A stretch of 64,000 bases of DNA, from NCBI GenBank assembly GCA_016861345.1, contig BOLD01000014.1, positions 1-64,000 on the forward strand, given 5' to 3'. Origin of the DNA: Oligoflexia bacterium. Lineage in GTDB: Bacteria; Bdellovibrionota; Bdellovibrionia; Bdellovibrionales; Bdellovibrionaceae. Shown here piece after piece: positions 208-14,986 of the stretch. A program made the position numbers and the translations under genes. The stretch's first letter is position 1. Every line of letters begins with the position of its first letter. Below the pieces are notes generated by a model. The model was not told the DNA's origin, ran no database searches, and saw only the letters and a program-made list of their open reading frames with translations.

Positions 208-1260
208 TCACTCTGAACGCTTAATAAAACGTCTGACAACATCTCTTCGTTCATTCAAAGTTTCGAGCATTGAACGCGTATCTTCGATCTTTAAATGCAA
301 ATATTTTTCTGTCGTCTTTAAGTTCGAATGCCCTGCAAGCTGACGTACCTTCTCAAGACTCACATCGCTTTGAACAAGCTCTGTAAGGATCGTATGTCTC
401 ATGCCGTGAAGACCCAGTCCATCGCAGCCCATTCTATGCACCACTCGGTGAACCGCAGTGGACACATGATTTGGCTGAAAGGGCAAATTCTCTTCAGTTA
501 AGAACACATGATTGGTTGGCTTTGAAAGAAAAGGTCTTTTCTTTTTCATTTCTAAAAACCACTCTCGCATGGATACCGTCATTGGGATTTTTCGATCTCT
601 GGATGTTCCGCCTTTGATTGAATGGATGCTAATTGCATTTTTATCAAAGTCGACATCCTTCCACCGAAGGTTAACCGCTTCGCCCCGTCTGACACCTGTT
701 TCATAAATAAAAAACACGATGTCCTTTAACCATTCAGGCGCTACTTGAAAAAACTTAACCACATCTTCTTTTGTCCAAAGTCGCTTTGGATTTGATTCTG
801 TTTTTAAATTTTTAAGTCGCCTTGTCGGTATGGACTTGATTAAGTTCCAGTCTTCGCACTTTCTAAAAAAGTGCCTGATGACGTTAAAGTGACGATTAAC
901 AGATGCCGCCTTGTACTCTCGGCGTTTTTTAAGCTGGTAAGCTTCTAAATCCATCAAGGTGATTTCATTAACAAGCTTGTCTTCAAAGAACTTTAAAAAG
1001 CTTTTAAGTGCTTGTTCATCTATCTCGCCAGTTCGTGGTGCTTTGGTGGGGCTTACTTGACTTAGGTATTTTTCAACTGCCATCTCAAGGCTTACTTCAT
1101 TAATCTGATGATAATCAGTCATCCGATCAATTGGCCTCAGCAAAAGACTTCTTTTAAATTCTTCTGCCTCTGCCCTGGTTGCAAACGATGGACGTTTGCG
1201 AACTCCCGCGATGCGGTAATCCACAATCCATCGACCATCTAATTTCTTTACTTGTGCCAT
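208..1260 (-). CDS. int: Tyrosine recombinase (phage-type integrase)
   Basis: This 350-aa protein should catalyse integration and excision of the element whose left end it abuts. The N-terminal part (about 1-150) resembles an arm-binding and SAM-like core-binding domain. The catalytic domain shows the family residues in order: R191 in TGVRRGEAVNLRW, K216, H285 and R288 in LHGMRH, H311 in AGHSN and the nucleophile Y320 in TTEKYLHL, all intact. The ATG is preceded by AAAGGAA at good spacing. It is the last gene of a minus-strand run, 12 bp after the excisionase-like gene. The 21-bp repeat 13 bp beyond its stop supports an active or recently active element. Confidence 0.93.
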   Translation of the reverse strand: MAQVKKLDGRWIVDYRIAGVRKRPSFATRAEAEEFKRSLLLRPIDRMTDYHQINEVSLEMAVEKYLSQVSPTKAPRTGEIDEQALKSFLKFFEDKLVNEITLMDLEAYQLKKRREYKAASVNRHFNVIRHFFRKCEDWNLIKSIPTRRLKNLKTESNPKRLWTKEDVVKFFQVAPEWLKDIVFFIYETGVRRGEAVNLRWKDVDFDKNAISIHSIKGGTSRDRKIPMTVSMREWFLEMKKKRPFLSKPTNHVFLTEENLPFQPNHVSTAVHRVVHRMGCDGLGLHGMRHTILTELVQSDVSLEKVRQLAGHSNLKTTEKYLHLKIEDTRSMLETLNERRDVVRRFIKRSE

Positions 1261-1669: not shown

Positions 1670-2494
1670 TCACTGTGGAACCCCAAGAGAATCTTGAGTG
1701 GACTTGGCTCCATCCATATTATTTGATTGTTCTTTTGCTTCCAGATTCCGAAGCTTATTAATGTATTTGCTAAACTGAATTTTGTAGTCACCAAATTCAA
1801 TTTCAAAGTTTACTGGGTCTGCAATCATATCAATCAACTTACAAAACCCAATAGGCTTATCATCAATAGGAAATAGTCTTCTATTGATGGCCTTTTCAAG
1901 ATTCACTTTTACCGAATTATGGTTATAGGCAATAAGGATAAGGCTTATATTGTCTGCATCCTTATACGCCGAAATAAAATCTAAATATTTACTTTCAGTC
2001 TTTCTTGTACGCTCAATTTCAAGAACCCCGGTTAACTTTTCTGACAATCCAGAGATCGAAAACAGCAGATCAGGAAGTTTATAGTTGGCAGATCCAAAGA
2101 TACTTTTTAAGTCATCTGAAGGTTTAGCTCTAAGACTTCTATCTCCTTGCCAATCAGAATTAATAATACCGACCTTTTGATTCGAGAGTGCAAATTTTAA
2201 AGCTGCATCATCGTGATCAAATTGATTGGGGTATGCAGCCGACACGGGCTCTATACCATAATTTGCAAGAATTCGTTTACCACGTTTTGAAAGTTTGTAG
2301 GTGTCTTCGCCATAGAAAGTACTTTTATAAGAATCTAAAAGTCCACTTTCGATAAGCCTTCCCCAGTTTTTATATTTGCTACTGACTGAAGCTGAAGAAA
2401 GATAATCGAAAAAGAATGCTTTTCGAATGTAGCCACTTTTAGCAACAAAGTTTAAAGCTTCCTTTTGAAAGTCAGGCATTGTTTGATAATCCAT
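1670..2494 (-). CDS. Replication-relaxation (MobC-like) family protein
   Basis: A 274-aa protein with the two-part layout of the Replic_Relax family. The N-terminal winged helix (about 10-80) ends in YKLSKRGKRILANYGIEP. The C-terminal domain contains HDDAALKF, then KLPDLLF and GVLEIERTRKTESKYLDF, the P-D...E-I-E-R-T-x-K signature of this family. Members are found on plasmids and integrative elements and are thought to help open or mobilise DNA; the biochemistry is poorly defined. It starts 2 bp after the two-TM gene, so the two are probably translated together. Assignment is by motif recognition only. Confidence 0.65.
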   Translation of the reverse strand: MDYQTMPDFQKEALNFVAKSGYIRKAFFFDYLSSASVSSKYKNWGRLIESGLLDSYKSTFYGEDTYKLSKRGKRILANYGIEPVSAAYPNQFDHDDAALKFALSNQKVGIINSDWQGDRSLRAKPSDDLKSIFGSANYKLPDLLFSISGLSEKLTGVLEIERTRKTESKYLDFISAYKDADNISLILIAYNHNSVKVNLEKAINRRLFPIDDKPIGFCKLIDMIADPVNFEIEFGDYKIQFSKYINKLRNLEAKEQSNNMDGAKSTQDSLGVPQ

Positions 2495-2496
2495 TG

Positions 2497-2883
2497 TTAT
2501 GTCTCCTTGGCCGCTCGGGCCGCTAATGATAGTTTTTTGGGTCTTGGTATTTCTACTGGTTTGACTGCTGGTGCGACGTCTATCTGCTTTTGAAGCATCG
2601 CCTGTGTTCGCTTTGCCTCAATTAACTGCCTTGTATTTTCTGCTTGTAGAGCTATGAACTTTCTAGTCTCCTCCTGTTTTTCTAAGAATCTAGAATAAAG
2701 CCATAGACCGACTACGACTGCAGCAATCACAGATACAGTAATCATAACCATAAAGATCTCAGATTTGTGACCTTCATAAAATTTCTGAGCATAGTTTATT
2801 GCTTTCGTAATGAGATTGCTTACGAAAACAATTACAGCTAGCCCTAAAATTACAGCAACAAATTGATCATTGTTGTTATTCAT
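2497..2883 (-). CDS. Small two-TM membrane protein with coiled-coil tail
   Basis: A 128-aa protein I do not recognise. Two hydrophobic helices are visible (about 10-32 and 44-66), followed by a charged Q/E/R-rich stretch that should form a coiled coil (LEKQEETRKFIALQAEN onward) and a basic Pro-containing tail. The topology suggests an inner-membrane anchor with a cytoplasmic tail. I chose the ATG at 2883 because AGGAG sits 6 nt upstream; a longer frame begins at 2955 without support. The ATG lies inside the last codons of the preceding small ORF (stop ends at 2876), so translation is probably coupled. It could be a mobilisation accessory or an immunity or exclusion protein; nothing here decides. 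Confidence 0.6.
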   Translation of the reverse strand: MNNNNDQFVAVILGLAVIVFVSNLITKAINYAQKFYEGHKSEIFMVMITVSVIAAVVVGLWLYSRFLEKQEETRKFIALQAENTRQLIEAKRTQAMLQKQIDVAPAVKPVEIPRPKKLSLAARAAKET

Positions 2884-3124
2884 AATTTCTCCTTTCGCAT
2901 CCACAAGCGACGAATTGCATAGATTTGCACGAGAATTCAAATAAATATTTTCCACCTTGAGATCTCAAAATCCGAATTTTGTCCCTATAGGTCCCCGCAT
3001 GACCCCCTAGGACCCTTCGTGACCCCAAGCTGGGGACAAAAAATATTTTCAACTTCAACATTGCGCACCAGGAATTAATCCGAAATTTTCTGCGATAATA
3101 TTCTACTAAAGATTCGCTATTCAT
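2876..3124 (-). CDS. Small ORF, second copy of a duplicated coupled module
   Basis: An 82-aa frame beginning MNSESLVEYYRRKFR with an AGGGAGA Shine-Dalgarno. It overlaps the upstream small ORF by 8 nt and the downstream two-TM gene by 8 nt. Its last 14 residues (MQFVACGCERRNYE) nearly repeat the C-terminus of the upstream small ORF (MQFVACKCKGRNNE), because the DNA carrying each next gene's start signal is duplicated. A middle stretch (KFRI...KLKIFF) also resembles the neighbour. It may be a real small Cys-containing protein or a decaying copy whose C-terminus only transmits ribosomes to the next gene. No family recognised. Confidence 0.35.
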   Translation of the reverse strand: MNSESLVEYYRRKFRINSWCAMLKLKIFFVPSLGSRRVLGGHAGTYRDKIRILRSQGGKYLFEFSCKSMQFVACGCERRNYE

Positions 3125-3695: not shown

Positions 3696-6600
3696 TTAAT
3701 TTACAAGTAATTCGCAAAAGTTAAAGTAGCGCCTAAAGAGCTTTAAACACATTTCACGATCATCATTAACACCGAATGATTTGATCAAATTTGAAAAGCC
3801 TCCATGGCCTGTACTATCCTTGAGATAGTTGAAAATCTCGGAGCGGGCCGATGGACTTTTGAGGGCTGCCCCTAATCCAAAGTGCATGTAGCGGGAATTC
3901 GTTGTCATAAAGTCGGTATGTGGGAAGCTATTCTTCGACAAATACCAAGTAAGGGGCTTGAGATCACCAAGTTGGGTAAAAACATGGTCTACAATTGCGT
4001 CCCAACTCTCTTTGTTCTTTAATACGATGCGATTCTCGTATTCATTTAGCATCTGAAATAGTTTCTCAATTTCCTCCCGAGACTTAGAAGATTTGATCTT
4101 ATCAACAAAGTCATTTTCCGCAAACAATGCTTTCTTCTCTACTTCTTCCTCTTTGACCTCAAACGCAGGTTCAAGACCTCTCAGAACGCAGAGTGCGTTC
4201 ATTCGCCTTTTCTCTTCATCATCTCGTAAGAATGCGAACTCAACCTTCATTCCCGCCTCTACAACCGATTGAGCTTTAGTGAACGCCTCATCTCGAACAT
4301 TATTTGGGTAGAGCGAGCTTTCGGCAATTTCTAAATATACCTTCAGCTTTTCTCCAAAAACTTCACCGTCTCCATGCCGTCTTCGATACCTCTCAAAGTA
4401 AGACTCAATTTCCTCTATCGAAACGCCCACCGAAACCTTGCCAAGAAGTAATATTGTAATGGCGTCATTCCATGTGTTGTATGGATCATTTTCGAAAAGC
4501 AGATCACATAATGTTTCAGCAAGAACTACGTCGTGTTTCGCTACTAATCTGAGTAAATGATAGGGGCCATGAGACGTCCCCTTGCCGTCTGTAATATTAG
4601 CAACCCTGACCGTTAAGTTGAATAGTGCTTTTACGGTTTGCTCGAGAACTTCTCCATCAAGGTAATTGTGGTCCCAGAGTACTTCAAGAGCATCAACGAG
4701 AAGGTGACTGACAATGTGGTCCTTGCGGACACCATGCCTTAAGATGTCGTCGAGGATACCTTTCCTAAAGTATTTGGCAGCAGCTTCTGTATTTTGCTCT
4801 CCAAACAGAATCGATAGCTCAAAACATCGATCAATGTAGGATGGAAACTCACCGTCCCATTTCAACAACTCGTTTTCGAGAGGAACGAGGTAAGTAGAAC
4901 TAACGATACGGGCAAATGCAACTTCATTGCCCGCTTTGATTGGAAGCAGGGCAACTGTGGCAATAACTCCGTTTTCTTCGTCAAATAACGCATTTCTGCA
5001 AAGCTGAACGCTGGTGTCACTCTGAAAGCCCGCCGCAACTATTTTGCCAATTAGTCGCGAGGTATCTCTCCTGATTTGATTGTCACCTTTCCCATGGGAA
5101 GCCCGAATATATTTGAAGTAGTCTCTCAGTATCTCTTCGAGAGTGACTTCCTTCTTAAGTAGACCAATGAACGAGGAAAAGAGGGCTGCATAAAGAAGAT
5201 GGTCAATAAAAAAGTTATTCAATGTCCCGTTGAGAATTTCAGCGAAAGAATATTTTCCTCGGGTGTAACAAGTAATGCCATACGTGAAGGCATGACTCCT
5301 AAAGTGCCAATCTATTTTGCGGGTGTTTTTAATTTCTTCGTTCTGCAATTCAACCTGCTTAAGCTCGTCCTCTGTGAGAGCGATACCAAACAGTTTTTTG
5401 AGAAAGGCATACTCTAGACCAAAACTTCCAGCGCTGGAGTTTCTTCTTTCAGAGATTCGCTTCTTTATCTTCGATGCCAAGTCCAAACTCTGAAAAAGAT
5501 GTTGAATGAAATTTAATCTAACCAGGGTTCCGACAAGAATTAAGAACTCGCTGTCCTCTAGCTCGTCGAATATGCCGACGACTGCCACACTGCCTTTAGT
5601 TAGGAGCGCCTCAAAGAATGCTGAGACGATTCTCTCTTTGGCAGAGAGCTCATAAGGCAAGCTCCTATGATCAGAGAGGCTTTTGACATTTGGACGGATA
5701 AGTTCCTCGAGAATTTTTTTTGGATCTAGTTTGTCTTGAAAAAGTCGAAGATAAACCCAATCCTCGATTTTGCTCCAGAAAGGATCATTCGGCTGTTGAT
5801 GTTCTTCGAAGCTTTCGTCGAATTTATACGCTTTAAAAAGGCTCAGTGCATCTGCAAGATTTTGCCTTATCGTCTTTGCCGCGTTGGTTTTTCCGGACTC
5901 ATGGAACAGACGACAAAGAGTAATGGCGTCGCTTAATCCCTTTCCTCGAATTGAGAGCAATCGCTGTTCAAGCTGATAGTCTTTCTTTTCGGAATTCCAC
6001 TTCTTTAAGTCTGACTCTAGTGCCGCCAGATCGATCGCAATCTTCGCACCGAGATTCAATTGTTCGTCAGACATCAACTCCATGAATACTCGATTTGGTA
6101 AAGCTGAAAGAGCTTGTGGAAACTGATTTGAGTTCTGGTAATAGGCATCATCCACTCCAAACCCAGAATGTTTCCCAAGATAGACATCGATTAAATTGAG
6201 CTCGGTTACTCCAACGATGTCATGGTTGGATTCATAGGATGACCGGAGGTAGGGCAAAAATAGCTTTTCAAGAAGATCTTGGTTGGCGAGGACGTCCCAT
6301 TGCCTAAGTGCAGAGCAATTTTTTTCATATTCTTGTTTCAAATGTTGGACAAAAAAGAATTCTTGGTACCGACGATGTTGGTACACATATGAGGGCTCGG
6401 AAGGCGTGCTGGATCCGTGATTATCGAAGAACACTGTGGCTAAGTAAGAAATTATCTCATTTACGTCACTGTAGTTCAGACGACGGTATTTGTTTAAGAG
6501 AAGCGACTGGAGATCCTTAAGTGGAAATCTAAATTGATACTTTTTCTGAAAGAAAGCTGCAATCTCTCGATTAATCAAATTCAACTCAAAACCCTTTGGA

Positions 6601-7871
6601 TCGGGAAGATTTAAGTTAACCAGATTACGTTTGTGATGAGGCAAGTTGAGCAAGAGTGAGCTTTTTCGTTCTAAAAGTTCGAGAACGGATCCATTATCTC
6701 GCAAATCTAGTATTGTGTCCCAAAGTAGCCGCACAAAAAGAACATCCCGAATCTCTTCGAGAAGAAGAGGATTTGCTATTTTGAGATTATTGAGTTTGTT
6801 CTCCTTAGCCTTGTCACCCTTGCTTACAAAATACTGATCGACTTGGGCTTCCTGTAGATCGCCAATACGGTATTCAACAATGTTTGGAAAATGGAGTTTT
6901 GCCTTTGTGCGATTGTGATTTCCCAATCTGCATGTCATTACTATTTTTTGAGTTGTATTTGCCCGAGATAGCTCTTGTATGTAGCAAAGTGTATACTCCG
7001 CGGTCTCTTCAGAGAGTTCATCCAGCCCATCAAACAGATACACGAAATTCAATGATTGACCGTTCAGAACACTTTCTGACTTCCTTGCAGCAATTAAGCT
7101 TTCAAGTGTTTGCCCAACACAGTTACGCAGGTTAACCAACATCGGAAATGCACCTTGGGAAACCAAGGCTGACAGCATCTTGTTAGCCGTACTTTCTCTA
7201 GTGCAGGCTAGATCTGAAAATAGGCGATGAATATGAACACTTTTGCCTGATCCAGGGCTACCAACTAATAAATGGACTCTCTCCGTTGCTCCTAAAACTG
7301 TTGCCTTAAGATCGGCGACTTGATTGGATCCCTGGTGCACTTCTAATGCGATATACTCCTTGGAAGCAAGTAGAGTCAGGGTTTCCTTGTTCGTGCTGTT
7401 TTCGATGAATTTTAAAACGTCACTAACGCCAAAATAGAATTGTGCTAGGTCGAGATTAGATGCCTTGCTCAATAGAGTTTTGAAATGAGACGGGACAACC
7501 CAATCAATGTCTATTCCAGCCTTTTTCGCGGTCTTTTCAATTTGAGCTCTAGCCTTCGACGCCTGCCCAAGAGGCCTATTTACATAAATGTGAATGCGAT
7601 GAAGGCGCCCCTTATAGGTTCGGATCGCTGTCTCAATTGAATCCTTAATTTGCTGATAGTCGATCTTGTTGTCAAAAAACTTAGATTGAAAGCCAACATA
7701 CTTTCTAGAAATCTTAACTGGCTCAGTTTCAAGCCCTGCCTGATTGAAATCAACTTTGACACCATCGCTCAACCTATATTTGCGGCAAAAGAGGTGATAG
7801 CAAAGATCTTCAAATGCCCCCGTGGCATCTTTATTACGAACACGAAATTGATTCCAGTCTATTGAAATCAT
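3696..7871 (-). CDS. NACHT NTPase with N-terminal nuclease-like domain (antiphage STAND candidate)
   Basis: This 1391-aa protein looks like a STAND/NACHT defence ATPase. Residues 1-135 resemble a PD-(D/E)xK nuclease of the Mrr/Cap4 type: FEDLCYHLF with E21, then GLETE with E48, and VGFQSKFF with Q62-x-K64. The NACHT module has Walker A GSPGSGKS at 204-211 and the typical acidic Walker B FVYLFDGLDEL at 276-286. The remaining ~900 residues are helical and repeat-like, the usual place of the sensor. By analogy with Avs and bNACHT proteins it should oligomerise after sensing an invader and cut DNA. It is the third gene of the AbiEi-AbiEii operon: its ATG overlaps the toxin stop as ATGA, so it is translationally coupled. 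The trigger cannot be told from sequence. Confidence 0.85.
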   Translation of the reverse strand: MISIDWNQFRVRNKDATGAFEDLCYHLFCRKYRLSDGVKVDFNQAGLETEPVKISRKYVGFQSKFFDNKIDYQQIKDSIETAIRTYKGRLHRIHIYVNRPLGQASKARAQIEKTAKKAGIDIDWVVPSHFKTLLSKASNLDLAQFYFGVSDVLKFIENSTNKETLTLLASKEYIALEVHQGSNQVADLKATVLGATERVHLLVGSPGSGKSVHIHRLFSDLACTRESTANKMLSALVSQGAFPMLVNLRNCVGQTLESLIAARKSESVLNGQSLNFVYLFDGLDELSEETAEYTLCYIQELSRANTTQKIVMTCRLGNHNRTKAKLHFPNIVEYRIGDLQEAQVDQYFVSKGDKAKENKLNNLKIANPLLLEEIRDVLFVRLLWDTILDLRDNGSVLELLERKSSLLLNLPHHKRNLVNLNLPDPKGFELNLINREIAAFFQKKYQFRFPLKDLQSLLLNKYRRLNYSDVNEIISYLATVFFDNHGSSTPSEPSYVYQHRRYQEFFFVQHLKQEYEKNCSALRQWDVLANQDLLEKLFLPYLRSSYESNHDIVGVTELNLIDVYLGKHSGFGVDDAYYQNSNQFPQALSALPNRVFMELMSDEQLNLGAKIAIDLAALESDLKKWNSEKKDYQLEQRLLSIRGKGLSDAITLCRLFHESGKTNAAKTIRQNLADALSLFKAYKFDESFEEHQQPNDPFWSKIEDWVYLRLFQDKLDPKKILEELIRPNVKSLSDHRSLPYELSAKERIVSAFFEALLTKGSVAVVGIFDELEDSEFLILVGTLVRLNFIQHLFQSLDLASKIKKRISERRNSSAGSFGLEYAFLKKLFGIALTEDELKQVELQNEEIKNTRKIDWHFRSHAFTYGITCYTRGKYSFAEILNGTLNNFFIDHLLYAALFSSFIGLLKKEVTLEEILRDYFKYIRASHGKGDNQIRRDTSRLIGKIVAAGFQSDTSVQLCRNALFDEENGVIATVALLPIKAGNEVAFARIVSSTYLVPLENELLKWDGEFPSYIDRCFELSILFGEQNTEAAAKYFRKGILDDILRHGVRKDHIVSHLLVDALEVLWDHNYLDGEVLEQTVKALFNLTVRVANITDGKGTSHGPYHLLRLVAKHDVVLAETLCDLLFENDPYNTWNDAITILLLGKVSVGVSIEEIESYFERYRRRHGDGEVFGEKLKVYLEIAESSLYPNNVRDEAFTKAQSVVEAGMKVEFAFLRDDEEKRRMNALCVLRGLEPAFEVKEEEVEKKALFAENDFVDKIKSSKSREEIEKLFQMLNEYENRIVLKNKESWDAIVDHVFTQLGDLKPLTWYLSKNSFPHTDFMTTNSRYMHFGLGAALKSPSARSEIFNYLKDSTGHGGFSNLIKSFGVNDDREMCLKLFRRYFNFCELLVN

Positions 7872-8746
7872 CTAGACCCCTCACTTAATTTAACTCCATC
7901 CAAATACTCCTGTAACACCCCAAACCCCACCTCAATACTAGTATCGATGCCACACTCCTCTGCCAAATCGGCATAGGGTGCAGCCCAAGATTTTGGTGGG
8001 GCTTCAACTTTTAAAGTTAATGGGTGAGTATTTCTTAGCTTAAAGGTTGTCTCTAGAGCTTTCATCAAGCGTTTCTGATCAAGGCCATCTTCAATAAGTA
8101 GATTCATATCAATCAAGTCTTTGACACGTGAATTTTCACGCCCGTCTTTTCGAGGCAAAGTATAAGCATGAAGCTTTTCTGCAAACTGCTGCTCTTTTGG
8201 AATGGCTGGCAATTTCTGCTGCTCAAAACCAGCAAATGACAAAATATCACTTGAATCAAGTTGATCCAGCGGATCACTCCACACATCACCCATTCCAACA
8301 TCTAAAAGAAATTTTTGAAAATCACGATCCGCAAGTTTTGCAGTAACATGGAAACGAGTTCCGCCTTCAGGGGCAGCATTTGAATCCTGAGTAGGCTCTG
8401 AAATTAAAAAGGAAAAGAAATCACCCAAGTCCAAAGCCGCTTGCTTAATTATTAGCTCACGAATGGCATGGTTTCGCTTACTTTCATCACTCGAAAACAG
8501 CTTTGCCTCTTTCAGTGCCAAATCAATATCTTTAGTCGTTCGAGCACTATCGGTTCGCAATTGCATTGCGTAACCGCCTTTTAATGCCCAAGGTGGTGAT
8601 TGCATCTTAAATAGCCTTACTAGCAAGCGGTCAAAAGCTACATCTCGGCGAAGGCGCTGAACATCAATGCCTTCTTTCTTAGAAAGATTAGCAATTCGAT
8701 CCTCAAGAGCTTTTCGAAGAGATTCTGCGTTTGTATACTTTTTCAC
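7868..8746 (-). CDS. abiEii: AbiEii/AbiGii-family nucleotidyltransferase toxin
   Basis: A 292-aa member of the type IV toxin family with a DNA-polymerase-beta-like nucleotidyltransferase core. ALKGGYAMQLRT (54-65) gives the conserved KGG, and TTKDIDLAL gives the metal-binding pair D73/D75. Known AbiEii toxins act by nucleotidyl transfer and cause reversible growth arrest during infection. The start is a GTG with AAGGAG upstream, inside the end of the antitoxin gene. The downstream NACHT gene overlaps by ATGA. Active-site residues look intact. Confidence 0.9.
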   Translation of the reverse strand: MKKYTNAESLRKALEDRIANLSKKEGIDVQRLRRDVAFDRLLVRLFKMQSPPWALKGGYAMQLRTDSARTTKDIDLALKEAKLFSSDESKRNHAIRELIIKQAALDLGDFFSFLISEPTQDSNAAPEGGTRFHVTAKLADRDFQKFLLDVGMGDVWSDPLDQLDSSDILSFAGFEQQKLPAIPKEQQFAEKLHAYTLPRKDGRENSRVKDLIDMNLLIEDGLDQKRLMKALETTFKLRNTHPLTLKVEAPPKSWAAPYADLAEECGIDTSIEVGFGVLQEYLDGVKLSEGSR

Positions 8747-8747
8747 T

Positions 8748-9368
8748 CTACTTAATCTCCTTCAGAAGTCGCTGAAGTTGCTTTCGCATATCATCAGCAA
8801 CCTGAACATGACTGATAATACTTTCAATTTCCCACTTTTGCAGTAGCCCCTTTGACAACGACTGATGAACCGCTTGTTCAATTATATCAAAAGATACCCA
8901 TCCACATTGGATCACATCGCTGATTGTTCTTCCAGGCTTTGTTACCAAAAAACCGCGACTTTTATGAATCATCGCAGCAGTTAGATCTGCATAATGTAGT
9001 TTCAAAATTTTAGGAATTTTTGAGTTTCGACGAAAGGATTTAGGGACAGTCATGTGAAGTTTAGATGGATTCACGTCAGTCAGCTCATAATGGGCCAGAG
9101 CTGTCTCATGAGAGTAAACGCCCTGAATCTCCCCTTCTCGATTTTTACTCCAAAGGGCATATAGTACTTTTTGTTCATCAGGGCTTTTGGGAAACATCGC
9201 CAAACGATAAAGCCCACGGGCTTCGCGAATCCAATGACCTTCATGAACATGATAAGCATGATTTTTATTTGAATAACCCACTTCTTCAGCTTGTTTGGCG
9301 GTAAATAGACCCTGCTGCTGGCTAGCTAGTTCAAATAGCTCTCTTGCCTTCTCAATATTTTGCCCCAT
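8748..9368 (-). CDS. abiEi: AbiEi-family antitoxin / transcriptional repressor
   Basis: A 206-aa protein with the AbiEi plan: an N-terminal winged-helix (LFTAKQAEEVGYSNKNHAYH...GHWIREARGLYRL) followed by the antitoxin domain with HETALAHYELTDVNPSKLHM and GRTISDVI. Family members bind inverted repeats in their own promoter and neutralise AbiEii without a stable complex. Two matching inverted repeats lie just upstream (9383-9405, 9424-9460). The ATG follows AGAGGTG. The gene heads a three-gene operon ending in the NACHT protein, so it probably sets the level of the NACHT protein as well. Confidence 0.9.
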   Translation of the reverse strand: MGQNIEKARELFELASQQQGLFTAKQAEEVGYSNKNHAYHVHEGHWIREARGLYRLAMFPKSPDEQKVLYALWSKNREGEIQGVYSHETALAHYELTDVNPSKLHMTVPKSFRRNSKIPKILKLHYADLTAAMIHKSRGFLVTKPGRTISDVIQCGWVSFDIIEQAVHQSLSKGLLQKWEIESIISHVQVADDMRKQLQRLLKEIK

Positions 9369-9690: not shown

Positions 9691-10479
9691 ATGGATTACA
9701 CACCCCACGTGGTCGCATTTCTCGATATTCTCGGCTTTTCAGAAATTTGCATGAAGTCTGATACTTCAAATGAACATCGGGAAAGCCTAAACATCATATT
9801 CGATCTATGCCAAACGATCTCCTCAAGATTCGAGCATCTAAAAGGCAAGAAAGAGATTAAATCAATGATTGTCAGCGATTCAATCGTACTTACACTTGCG
9901 CTTGAGAGCAGAAAACCCACTCTTCAAGAACTTGCTAATTTCTTTTTAGCGTGTGGTCAATTTCAGTACTATTTAGGCAAAAGTGGCTTTTGGCTACGAG
10001 GGGGAATTTCCATCGGATCTCTTAATGTAAACTTCGATCAAAAGCACGTTGTCGGCCCCGCTTTAATTCGTGCTGTAAATTTGGAAAAGAAAGTTGCTCG
10101 ATACCCACGAATAGTTGTTGATCCGCTTGTAATGGCAGAGCATGGCATTGCAAATTCCACCGAGTTCAGAAACAAAATCAATGATCTCTATACCGGGGAT
10201 GGCCAACGATCATTATTTGAATGGCGCGGATTTATGGATGACTGGGGAGAAGCTAACATCCCGAAAGATGTCCCCCTGTTTATCGATTTCATGCGAAGTG
10301 TTCTTAATGAAGATGGAGACATCGATATCGTAGCGGAATCTGTCGCCAAAGGATTGCGAGGCCCCATGGAGCACTATGAAAAATACCGCTGGCTTGGTGA
10401 CTACATATTAGCTGGACATCGACAGCGATCTGCCGGAATTTCTCAACATACTGACAGATTAAAGGTCCTGCTTGGTTAA
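9691..10479 (+). CDS. Class III nucleotidyl-cyclase-like protein
   Basis: A 262-aa soluble protein with the motif order of class III nucleotidyl cyclases. VVAFLDILGFS (7-17) carries the first metal-ligand Asp at D12. MIVSDSIVLTL carries the second at D63. FWLRGGISIGSL matches the R-x-G-I-x-x-G strand, and VVGPALIRAVNLEKKV matches the G..vN.A.rl helix. Pycsar uridylate/cytidylate cyclases have this fold and show up in defence operons, so a signalling nucleotide is possible, but substrate residues cannot be read with confidence. The ATG at 9691 follows GAGGA; a TTG at 9679 is less likely. The stop overlaps the next gene by 8 nt. The class is fairly sure; activity is unproven. Confidence 0.7.
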   Translation: MDYTPHVVAFLDILGFSEICMKSDTSNEHRESLNIIFDLCQTISSRFEHLKGKKEIKSMIVSDSIVLTLALESRKPTLQELANFFLACGQFQYYLGKSGFWLRGGISIGSLNVNFDQKHVVGPALIRAVNLEKKVARYPRIVVDPLVMAEHGIANSTEFRNKINDLYTGDGQRSLFEWRGFMDDWGEANIPKDVPLFIDFMRSVLNEDGDIDIVAESVAKGLRGPMEHYEKYRWLGDYILAGHRQRSAGISQHTDRLKVLLG

Positions 10480-11134
10480 AACGTCTAAAGAAATGCTTGA
10501 AGCACTAAAAGAAAATGGGTGGGCAGAAACCTCAGGCCCCCTTTGCAACTTTGACGAAATATTACTTTCTATAGGTAAAAATCTAGGGCGTCCAATCTCG
10601 GCAAGAGGTGGTATCGGACTCGTTCAGCAGCTTTCACCACTCGATAAGGCGAACGGTTATCCGCGATCATTGACTTCAAAATTTGGTATGTCCTCATTTC
10701 CATTCCATAGTGACACTTCACACTGGCTAACGCCATGTCGCTACATAATTCTCGGATGTATCTCGCCTGGCGCAGGACACAGAACAACTGAACTTGCAAG
10801 GTTAGATAAACTTGATCTGACGTCTTCAGAAATAAAATTTCTTCACAACCATCCCTTTCGAGTAATCAATGGAAGCAAGTCATTCTTCAGTTCAATTCTC
10901 GGGCATAACAGACCTTTTATCAGATACGATCCCGGATGCATGCAAAGCGCTTCATGTCGCACGGATCTATCTAATGAAATCCTCTCTCCACAACGCCTTG
11001 AAAACATATCAGAACAAATATCCTGGTTTGCAGGAAAGATAATCGTGATAGACAACTGGAGAGCTCTTCACAGAAGAAGCTTCTCCGCTACTAACGACAA
11101 AGATCGAACACTGAAAAGAGTATTAGTTATATGA
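10472..11134 (+). CDS. Fe(II)/2-oxoglutarate-dependent dioxygenase-like protein (TauD-like fold)
   Basis: A 220-aa protein with the full metal and cosubstrate signature of TauD/clavaminate-type oxygenases: H79-x-D81 in FPFHSDTSHW, the distal His H200 in DNWRALHRR, and R212/R216 in DRTLKRVLV for 2-oxoglutarate. It is shorter than TauD (about 280 aa) but has the core double-stranded beta helix elements. The likely start is a TTG overlapping the cyclase stop, with AAAGGT 6 nt upstream; an ATG at 10493 is the alternative. The 3' end overlaps the next gene as ATGA. Its substrate is unknown. The place between a cyclase-like and a HEPN-like gene is not one I know for this family. Confidence 0.72.
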   Translation: MVKTSKEMLEALKENGWAETSGPLCNFDEILLSIGKNLGRPISARGGIGLVQQLSPLDKANGYPRSLTSKFGMSSFPFHSDTSHWLTPCRYIILGCISPGAGHRTTELARLDKLDLTSSEIKFLHNHPFRVINGSKSFFSSILGHNRPFIRYDPGCMQSASCRTDLSNEILSPQRLENISEQISWFAGKIIVIDNWRALHRRSFSATNDKDRTLKRVLVI

Positions 11135-12075
11135 CAGTCATTAATCCAAGCCTTGATGCTAGCTCTCTATTTTCTAAATCACAGGTCTATATAGAGCGAG
11201 GACTCATTGCTAAAGATACCAACAACATGGAAGTATATCAATTATGGGCTTCATTGGCGATCGAACTCCTAGCCAAGTCTTCCTTGAGCCATGTCCATCC
11301 GGCTCTCGTTGCAGACCCAACACATGTGGAATCACTTTTTGCTGCTTGTGGAAAACAAATCTCTCCAGATGTTAAGACAATCACAGCAAAAACCCTATTT
11401 GAACGTTTAAGCACCCTGCTTCCAAGTTTCGATCAGCGATGCAAACATTTTTGTGTGCAACTTGCCCTAAGACGAAATTCAGAACTGCATTCAGGTGAAT
11501 CGCCGTTCTCAGGAATGAATGCTGATACCTGGGAAGGACAATTTTGGTATGCTGCCGAACTTCTACTTGTCTACCAGGACAAGAACTTAGATGATTGGCT
11601 AGGAGCAAAAGAAGCAAATGCACCAAAGAGGATATTAGCTCAAGCAGAGTCATCTCTCACTTTGATTGTTAAAGAAAAGTTAAAGCACGCAAAAAAAGAC
11701 TTTTCAAAAGAGGCACCCAACGCAAGCGCAAAAAAAGCAAAAATGAAGAGCTCAATCGATTTTTCAAAAAATCAATTTGCTGAAAAATTCGCTTATGACT
11801 TAGACATAGTCGAACGTATAAAGTGCCCGGCATGCTCTTGTTTAGGTGGATTGGGCGGAGAGCTAATTGACGAGGAAGTAGATAGCTCGATCGATAATGA
11901 TGATCCCTTTATCGAAAATTTAGTCCAAACTTATAGCAGTGAAGAATTCCTTTGCCTGATTTGCAATCTTCACTTGAAGGGAAAAAGAGAGCTTAATGAA
12001 GTTGAAATTGAAGATACCTTTACTAGGATTACTGAACGGGAACGGGAATTTGAACCGGATTATGGAAATGACTAA
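11131..12075 (+). CDS. HEPN-like protein with C-terminal zinc ribbon
   Basis: A 314-aa protein with no name I can give. The first ~160 residues are helical and contain WASLAIELLAKSSL followed by LALRRNSELHSG, where R115-x4-H120 with the adjacent Asn matches the HEPN RNase motif. A Lys-rich linker (about 180-210) leads to a probable zinc ribbon: C232-P-A-C235-x-C237 and C275-x-x-C278 flanking an acidic loop. HEPN proteins often act as ribonuclease effectors in defence systems; the ribbon could bind nucleic acid or the partner. It starts as ATGA on the stop of the dioxygenase-like gene and ends the operon. HEPN assignment is by motif and is tentative. Confidence 0.55.
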   Translation: MTVINPSLDASSLFSKSQVYIERGLIAKDTNNMEVYQLWASLAIELLAKSSLSHVHPALVADPTHVESLFAACGKQISPDVKTITAKTLFERLSTLLPSFDQRCKHFCVQLALRRNSELHSGESPFSGMNADTWEGQFWYAAELLLVYQDKNLDDWLGAKEANAPKRILAQAESSLTLIVKEKLKHAKKDFSKEAPNASAKKAKMKSSIDFSKNQFAEKFAYDLDIVERIKCPACSCLGGLGGELIDEEVDSSIDNDDPFIENLVQTYSSEEFLCLICNLHLKGKRELNEVEIEDTFTRITEREREFEPDYGND

Positions 12076-13497: not shown

Positions 13498-14986
13498 TCA
13501 AAACTCTTCTTCAAAAAACTCTTGGAAATAATCATCCGCCTCTGGCGGCCCACGCACTGGCTCTGCAATCAACGGTTTAAAAACTGTGACCTCGCCAATA
13601 TTTTCAAGCAATGCTTTGATCGCGACTCGGTCCTTGATCACAGCTATCTGCTCAAGTCTACCCTTGCACTTTGGGCAAATCGTCACGTCAATTTCAAATA
13701 CCCTCTTTAACATCTGAGCCCAGCGCATTCGCTCACGCTTAGAGTTTGCCGCAAGCGTAGGGCTTACGCTTTCATCAGGCGCAGTCATGGCCACAGGTGT
13801 TTTTGCAACAGACTTTGGAACAATCTTTTTCCTATCCTTGAAATTTGGTGCGAACACGCCATGGTATCTCATCATATTAAATCTTGGAGGCGGAATCACC
13901 GCGATAAGTCTTGCTATAAAATCCAGGTGTGAAAATTCAATTTCCCGTGTGCCGTCCCGCCACGGCGTTTTTAATTTATACAACAAAGAATTTGGAAAGC
14001 TTTCGCGTAGTCGATCTGTTGCGATTGGTCCACGAGCCATGTACCTGACTAAATGTTCAAGTTTTTTCCTGTCGTGGCCACTGATCCAGACCCTGGCGTT
14101 CAAGCTAAAGCCTTCGACATTTGCAGAATATGGATTACCTTCAGGATCTACTTCGATTTTCTTTATGCCATATCGTTTTAGACCCCCGGCCTTCCCTCTC
14201 TCCAAAGGCTGATTTATGCTGAATCGAAATTGTTGAAATATCACCAAGTAGATTTTGATTGAAATCTGTCTGATCAGTTTCATTAAAACCCATCTTTTCA
14301 ACTGCTACCTGAACCTTGTTTTTAACTTTTTCTGCGAGCTCAAAAAGCTCTTCTTGTGAAGGCTCTTGCAAGCGATAAAATATATACTCGTCGCCTGATT
14401 TGTAAAACACACCATCAGCAAATAAAGAGTGGAAGTGAATATTTAGATTCAATGCTGAACCAAAACGCTGTATGAATGTCACTACTCCAGGCTTTGAATT
14501 TTTGATCCCACTGCGACGAGCTTTCTTTTTCAAGTATGAACCGATCACTGCAATAAAAATCGAAAGTGCTTTATTCGTGAGCTTCGGACTATAAGCCATC
14601 ATATAACGAAGCTTGTATGGAAATGAAATCACCCATTGTCTATAGGTGATTTTTGGCAGTACCTTATCCACCAAGTGTGCTGCCTCATCATTCATACGCC
14701 GGGCGCAACAGCTTGGGCAAAATCCTCTGCGTTTACAGCTAAACGCCACGATGCCCGAGTACTGGCATTGGTAGCAGTATGTTCTGACCACGCCAAATTC
14801 TGGGATACCGCACTTTAAAAAATCTTCGAACTCGTCCCTTATAAAATGCGGAACTGGCTTCCCAATTCGCTCTTGCTCACGCAAAAAGATTGGCCAGTAG
14901 GTAGCTACTGTCCGATAAACAAGTCCCTGTTCGGGACGATGTCTGATATACGGATTTATAAATGAATCGGGAGCCACGGCAGCCAT
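13498..14986 (-). pseudogene. IS91-family transposase, split by a single-base frameshift
   Basis: Two overlapping frames together make one IS91-type protein. The 5' frame (14,986 to 14,141) holds the N-terminal zinc domain (TYCYQCQYSG...KRRGFCPSCCARR) and the HUH-type core NIHFHSLFADGVF. The 3' frame (ending 13,498) resumes at AGGLKRYGIKK, with ARVWISGHDRKKLEHLVRYM and a C-terminal CPKCKGRLEQIAVI zinc pair. The switch is near 14,205-14,210, where one extra G after GERs codon run restores the order A-F-G-E-R / K-A-G-G-L. IS91 elements transpose by rolling circle and can carry adjacent DNA. A hairpin (GCCACGGCAGCC ATAA GGCTGTGGC, 14,975-14,998) followed by CTTG lies just upstream and may mark an end. 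Probably inactive unless the shift is programmed. Confidence 0.85.

Follow-up and report, generated by a model that had tools for sequence, protein, structure and literature searches.

Closest described systems

In prokaryotic immunity, HEPN RNases belong to the most common toxins, and the way in which partner proteins control them is known for few. In the HEPN/MNT system, the toxin is silenced through adenylylation by its partner (PMC7641770). A 2013 HEPN survey reports that ApeA is embedded in restriction-modification operons of some bacteria, and the word "oxygenase" does not occur in its text (PMC3710099). Here we describe a gene pair from a stretch of 64,000 nucleotides (nt) of an Oligoflexia bacterium (contig BOLD01000014.1, positions 1 to 64,000, in the following called the window), in which P2, a predicted TauD-family 2-oxoglutarate oxygenase, is directly followed by P3, a predicted HEPN RNase. 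P2 and P3 are co-inherited as a strict two-gene unit, for which a defence or toxin role is likely. The cyclase-like gene P1 that precedes them in the window is likely a local, unrelated neighbour outside of the conserved unit.

The pair resembles HEPN/MNT (HepT/MntA, type VII) in that a predicted RNase toxin is combined with an obligate enzyme partner, but this partner is a TauD-family 2-oxoglutarate oxygenase and not an MNT nucleotidyltransferase, and the zinc ribbon of P3 is counted as a further difference from the HEPN/MNT toxin. The window P3 also lacks a tyrosine two residues after its motif histidine (H120-S121-G122), which we take to be a feature of HepT. With ApeA-type HEPN proteins (Pfam HEPN_Apea), P3 shares the R-N-x3-H motif, and the public name of one P3 relative (P0046) starts with "Apea-like HEPN". 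However, the Pfam HEPN models matched just one of 40 P3 members, and this weakly (HEPN_Apea, E 0.0054), and P3 is distinguished from ApeA by its obligate oxygenase partner. AbiV-type Pfam models matched none of the same 40 members; in one plasmid locus (L032), an AbiV gene adjoins the pair as a separate gene. PADLOC 2.0.0 gave no convincing match for the P3, P2 or P1 family: the window P3 has no match, and any one model matches at most two of the 40 P3 members (E <= 0.01), the best value being 0.00032.

The first-pass annotation of the window had treated P1, P2 and P3 as one system and knew of no described counterpart. For the oxygenase-HEPN pair, searches of 5.39 million open-access papers found no description of a HEPN-oxygenase module, which, as subscription papers were mostly outside this search, is not proof of novelty; the trio itself does not hold up as a unit, as detailed below. 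An obligate oxygenase partner would add a new control chemistry for HEPN RNases, and P2-P3 could connect immune defence with oxygen, iron and central metabolism.

P2 and P3 as a conserved two-gene unit

In all 31 loci, the window included, P2 and P3 are adjacent and in the same order. These loci comprise 11 genome loci (L001-L011), 12 plasmids, five viral contigs, the window, L036 and L093, so that the carriers, which come from several bacterial phyla, include plasmids and viral contigs as well as chromosomes. A search of genomes with a P3 profile resulted in the 11 genome loci, each with P2 directly before P3. Plasmid records with P3 number 25, and P2 precedes P3 in all 12 of these that were examined, while a P2 profile led to the five viral contigs, where P3 follows P2 without exception. 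Altogether, 511 relatives of P3 were found among 2869 candidates, nine of P2 and 38 of P1 (the window's own entries included). Two of the P2 relatives lie on contigs of the same length as the contig of a P3 relative (27259 and 2670 bases). If the longest open reading frames (ORFs) are used to set the starts, 17 of the 31 loci show a 4-nt overlap of the two genes. In a set of 368 genomes from the phylum of the window, two contain P2 (E <= 1e-8), and a full-length P3 is found in the same two (E <= 1e-6). A second set of 390 genomes, taken from the order of the L003 genome, contains P3 in just two, and the module is therefore rare.

The trees of P2 and P3 are in agreement. The distances of P2 and of P3 correlate with 0.846 over 28 pairs, and none of 2000 label shuffles reached this value, the top shuffle giving 0.338; the two trees have 15 of 25 splits in common. 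Three incomplete loci were excluded from the distance comparison, namely L005, in which P2 extends beyond the retrieved sequence, L034 from a Bradyrhizobium plasmid, in which P2 is disrupted near the N-terminus and P3 is intact, and L030, in which P3 is split and P2 is intact. No third gene is common to all P2-P3 loci.

On the P3 tree, the proteins of L003 (Halomonas), L004 (a Rhodopirellula metagenome-assembled genome) and L002 (Marinobacter) are very close to each other, and those of L003 and L004 are almost identical. This reflects either a recent cross-phylum transfer or a mis-binned contig of the metagenome-assembled genome.

Two predicted enzymes

The sequence of P2 is that of a short Fe(II)/2-oxoglutarate oxygenase of the clavaminate-synthase-like kind. 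P2 passes the Pfam TauD model (2.2e-8, 34.8 bits versus a gathering cut-off of 27), and its best PDB profile match is clavaminate synthase (7.5e-12). The H-x-D/E...H facial triad and the C-terminal arginine are present, as the first-pass annotation had read from the window, and they are kept throughout the family: H79 is found in 30 of 30 readable copies, position 81 is occupied by D (27) or E (3) in the 30 readable copies, and H200, R212 and R216 are each found in 31 of 31. These metal ligands and the C-terminal arginine align with those of the solved relatives that were compared, which are clavaminate synthase, an arginine beta-hydroxylase, an asparagine oxygenase and an L-lysine 3-hydroxylase. 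In contrast to such hydroxylases, with chains of 324-364 amino acids (aa), P2 has only about 220 aa, the profile match starts at residue 114 of clavaminate synthase 3, and P2 is always located beside a HEPN gene in the loci examined. A longer TauD-family gene (277 aa; L083:275-1108, plus strand), which lies beside a 471-aa gene and has no P3 next to it, looks metabolic.

P3 models as a HEPN domain with the helical fold of this family, followed by a four-cysteine zinc ribbon. Its R115-N116-x3-H120 corresponds to the R-x4-6-H motif with a polar residue after the arginine. E45, N116 and H120 are each conserved in 31 of 31 loci and R115 in 30, the exception being L029 from a Bradyrhizobium plasmid, where glutamine replaces this catalytic residue next to an intact P2. 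The zinc-binding residues C232, C235, C275 and C278 are retained in all 30 readable copies. The R-x4-H motif and zinc ribbon noted for P3 in the first-pass annotation are conserved in the family, and its fold calls, cyclase for P1, oxygenase for P2 and HEPN for P3, were borne out by modelling and profile comparison. As the active-site residues of both P2 and P3 are kept, both proteins look to be under selection and probably work as enzymes.

Gene neighbourhoods

Thirty chosen entries from the P2-P3 neighbourhoods, in which a few ORFs are entered twice for different libraries, were scanned with Pfam and PADLOC, which revealed a clear defence neighbour in five of the 11 genome loci and identified none among the chosen entries of the other six. 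Type I restriction genes are found near the pair in L001, L006, L007 and L008, AbiE in L001, an OLD nuclease in L002 and a caspase-type protein in L008. Two copies of P2-P3 are embedded in type I restriction operons, with the gene order hsdM-hsdS-265 aa-P2-P3-hsdR in L007 and hsdM-hsdS-P2-P3-caspase in L008, where hsdR is located further on. Seven of 10 plasmid neighbourhoods contain a defence-named gene (L023, L025, L027, L028, L031, L032 and L034, but not L024, L026 and L033), versus none of 10 control stretches from the opposite side of the same plasmids (one-sided Fisher 0.0015; the counted annotated names were toxin-antitoxin, Abi, SIR2, Fic and restriction, a list fixed after the tables had been seen). 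The plasmids L029 and L030, which lie outside this comparison, have no defence-named neighbour.

The genes that lie tightly upstream of P2 vary, being hsdS in L008 (which overlaps the longest P2 ORF by 8 nt), a TrlF-type ATPase in L024, a 320-aa protein in L023 and P1 in the window, and in 16 of the 28 loci with a value, a gap of 66-350 nt separates P2 from the closest ORF upstream. On account of these differing upstream genes and the frequent gap, P2-P3 looks to be an independent cassette that inserts into various operons.

In L024 and L025, a TrlF-type AAA ATPase lies 9 nt before P2 and a GIY-YIG nuclease after the pair; in L026, such an ATPase is located downstream of P3. Three related viral contigs (L037-L039) have a gene of 202-267 aa upstream of P2 in common, the L037 copy of which has no Pfam or PADLOC match.

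Possible function of the pair

We tentatively prefer the view that P3 is a predicted HEPN RNase toxin and P2 likely its enzymatic antitoxin, with P1 likely an unrelated neighbour, and we hold it with somewhat less than even confidence. Active P3 would cut cellular RNA and so halt growth, and P2 would hydroxylate P3 and keep it silent, which is the least certain step. This hydroxylation is modelled on P2 relatives that hydroxylate arginine, lysine or asparagine side chains of amino acids; as the solved relatives act on such side chains, the simplest assumption is that P3 itself is modified. An infection that shuts off P2 synthesis, or that limits iron, oxygen or 2-oxoglutarate, would then release P3 and result in abortive infection, and a pair inside a type I restriction operon could serve as a second line if restriction fails. 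The damaged loci speak on both sides. The intact P3 next to a disrupted P2 in L034 weighs against a strict antitoxin, whereas the split P3 with an intact P2 in L030 argues for one, and the loss of the catalytic arginine of P3 beside an intact P2 in L029 is neutral to favourable.

A more specific form of the antitoxin view, which we consider doubtful as a whole, is a new class of post-translational toxin-antitoxin and antiphage switch, in which P2, dependent on oxygen, iron and 2-oxoglutarate, would hydroxylate the arginine/asparagine of the P3 HEPN active site. The RNase would be silent during respiration and protein synthesis and would fire when infection or metabolic collapse stops the hydroxylation. 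The pair would then be a mobile cassette with an effector function, placed in restriction operons, in TrlF-type operons and, in the window, behind a cyclase-like gene. With just two genes, P2-P3 is directly testable in Escherichia coli.

Alternatively, the pair could act as a restriction-modification system at the RNA level, in which P2 oxidises an RNA site of the own cell, for example in tRNA, and P3 cuts unmarked RNA. This would fit the conservation of a modifier's active site in P2 and of a predicted nuclease's in P3, the C-terminal zinc ribbon of P3 would suit nucleic-acid binding, and two copies of the pair reside within DNA restriction operons. The nearest solved relatives of P2, however, are named as hydroxylases of amino-acid or antibiotic pathways and not as RNA enzymes, and we regard this alternative as unlikely. 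It is improbable that P2 instead acts as an activator, which would turn P3 on at infection through a signal that P2 makes or unmasks, either a hydroxylated metabolite or P3 in its hydroxylated form. Such a role would account for the conserved active site of P2 and for the intact P3 that is tolerated beside the damaged P2 in L034, but it needs a trigger that neither gene supplies, and no additional gene accompanies the pair at all loci. Similarly improbable is an ordinary stability or metabolic cassette without an anti-phage role, be it an addiction module or an amino-acid hydroxylase with an unrelated HEPN protein. The pair is indeed plasmid-borne, and 13 of the 25 plasmid records with P3 are typed as conjugative, but chromosomal and contig copies lie inside or beside restriction systems, and the defence-named neighbours contrast with the control stretches.

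The cyclase-like neighbour P1

The model of P1 is that of a class III nucleotidyl cyclase with the cyclase homology-domain fold, and the metal aspartates D12 and D63, pointed out in the first-pass annotation, are conserved in all 36 readable rows of the 38 family members. At the positions that we take to hold the transition-state asparagine and arginine of class III cyclases, the window protein has Ile126 and Asn130, and the family shows asparagine in one and arginine in four of 38 members. Fold and metal aspartates resemble those of a Pycsar cyclase, but the oxygenase-HEPN pair exists without P1, which sets it apart from what we take to be the make-up of Pycsar. In PADLOC (E 0.01), whose library presumably contains Pycsar models, the 38 members gave no Pycsar-named match, the only matches being to Cas5f in two of them.

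P1 was found in the fetched flanks of none of the 30 other P2-P3 loci, several of these flanks being short, and of the 11 whole genomes from which L001-L011 were taken, 10 have no match to its family and one has two. The family occurs in 22 of the 368 genomes mentioned above (E <= 1e-10), of which just that of the window itself also has P2-P3. Across 18 fetched P1 loci, no neighbour cluster is found in more than two loci and P2-P3 in none, and six examined plasmids out of the 28 records with P1 relatives share no common partner. As P1 is missing from the fetched flanks of the 30 other loci and is free-standing elsewhere without P2-P3, it is likely a neighbour. Of the candidate defence system put forward in the first-pass annotation, the P2-P3 part stands as likely and the membership of P1 is not supported. 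The proposed trio, with a P1-made cyclic nucleotide controlling P3 and P2 modifying signal, RNA or effector, draws on the tight gene spacing in the window and on the cyclase fold with both metal aspartates, but it is very improbable given that it recurs in the fetched flanks of none of the 30 other loci, that the P1 family is free-standing and that its canonical transition-state residues are mostly missing, which also leaves the role of P1 as signal maker unsupported.

The window locus

The three tightly packed plus-strand ORFs lie with their motifs where the first-pass annotation had placed them, and its account of the surroundings was equally accurate (Table 1). Of the two overlaps it gave, that of P2 and P3 is plain, whereas the 8 nt between P1 and P2 are real only if P2 starts at TTG, as the ATG at 10493 would give a 13-nt gap. 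The TTG is preceded by AAAGG at a distance of 6 nt; the public gene call P0159 (213 aa) agrees in length with the ATG start. GAGG is found 6 nt 5' of the P1 ATG.

Table 1. Positions of P1, P2, P3 and context features in the window
Feature	Position	Strand	Remarks
P1	9691-10479	+	262 aa; ORF, class III nucleotidyl-cyclase fold
P1 metal Asp codons	D12 9724-9726; D63 9877-9879	+	
P2	10472-11134	+	220 aa from TTG (213 aa from ATG 10493); TauD-family oxygenase (predicted)
P2 metal/Arg codons	H79 10706-10708; D81 10712-10714; H200 11069-11071; R212 11105-11107; R216 11117-11119	+	
P3	11131-12075	+	314 aa; HEPN domain (~residues 1-167) and C-terminal four-Cys zinc ribbon
P3 motif R115-N116-x3-H120	11473-11490	+	
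P3 zinc-ribbon Cys, C232 to C278	11824-11964	+	
P2/P3 overlap	11131-11134	+	4 nt, ATGA
AbiEii/AbiEi pair	7868-9368	-	divergent, upstream; context, outside module
STAND/NACHT protein	3696-7871	-	1391 aa; first ~220 residues match Avs4; context
Tyrosine recombinase/integrase	208-1260	-	context
ORF after the transposase-like fragment	14141-14986		

As the Avs4 match of the NACHT protein is confined to its N-terminal part, the remainder may be a new sensor. A 152-aa gene at 2497-2955 (minus strand) weakly matches KwaA in PADLOC (E 0.0032), and the adjoining 274-aa gene at 1670-2494 (minus strand) has no PADLOC match; together (1670-2955) they are possibly another small membrane-linked defence pair. 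Downstream of P3, the ORF at 13498-14301 (minus strand) matches just the final part of the ISCR clade Ia/IS91 transposase model and is therefore probably a fragment.
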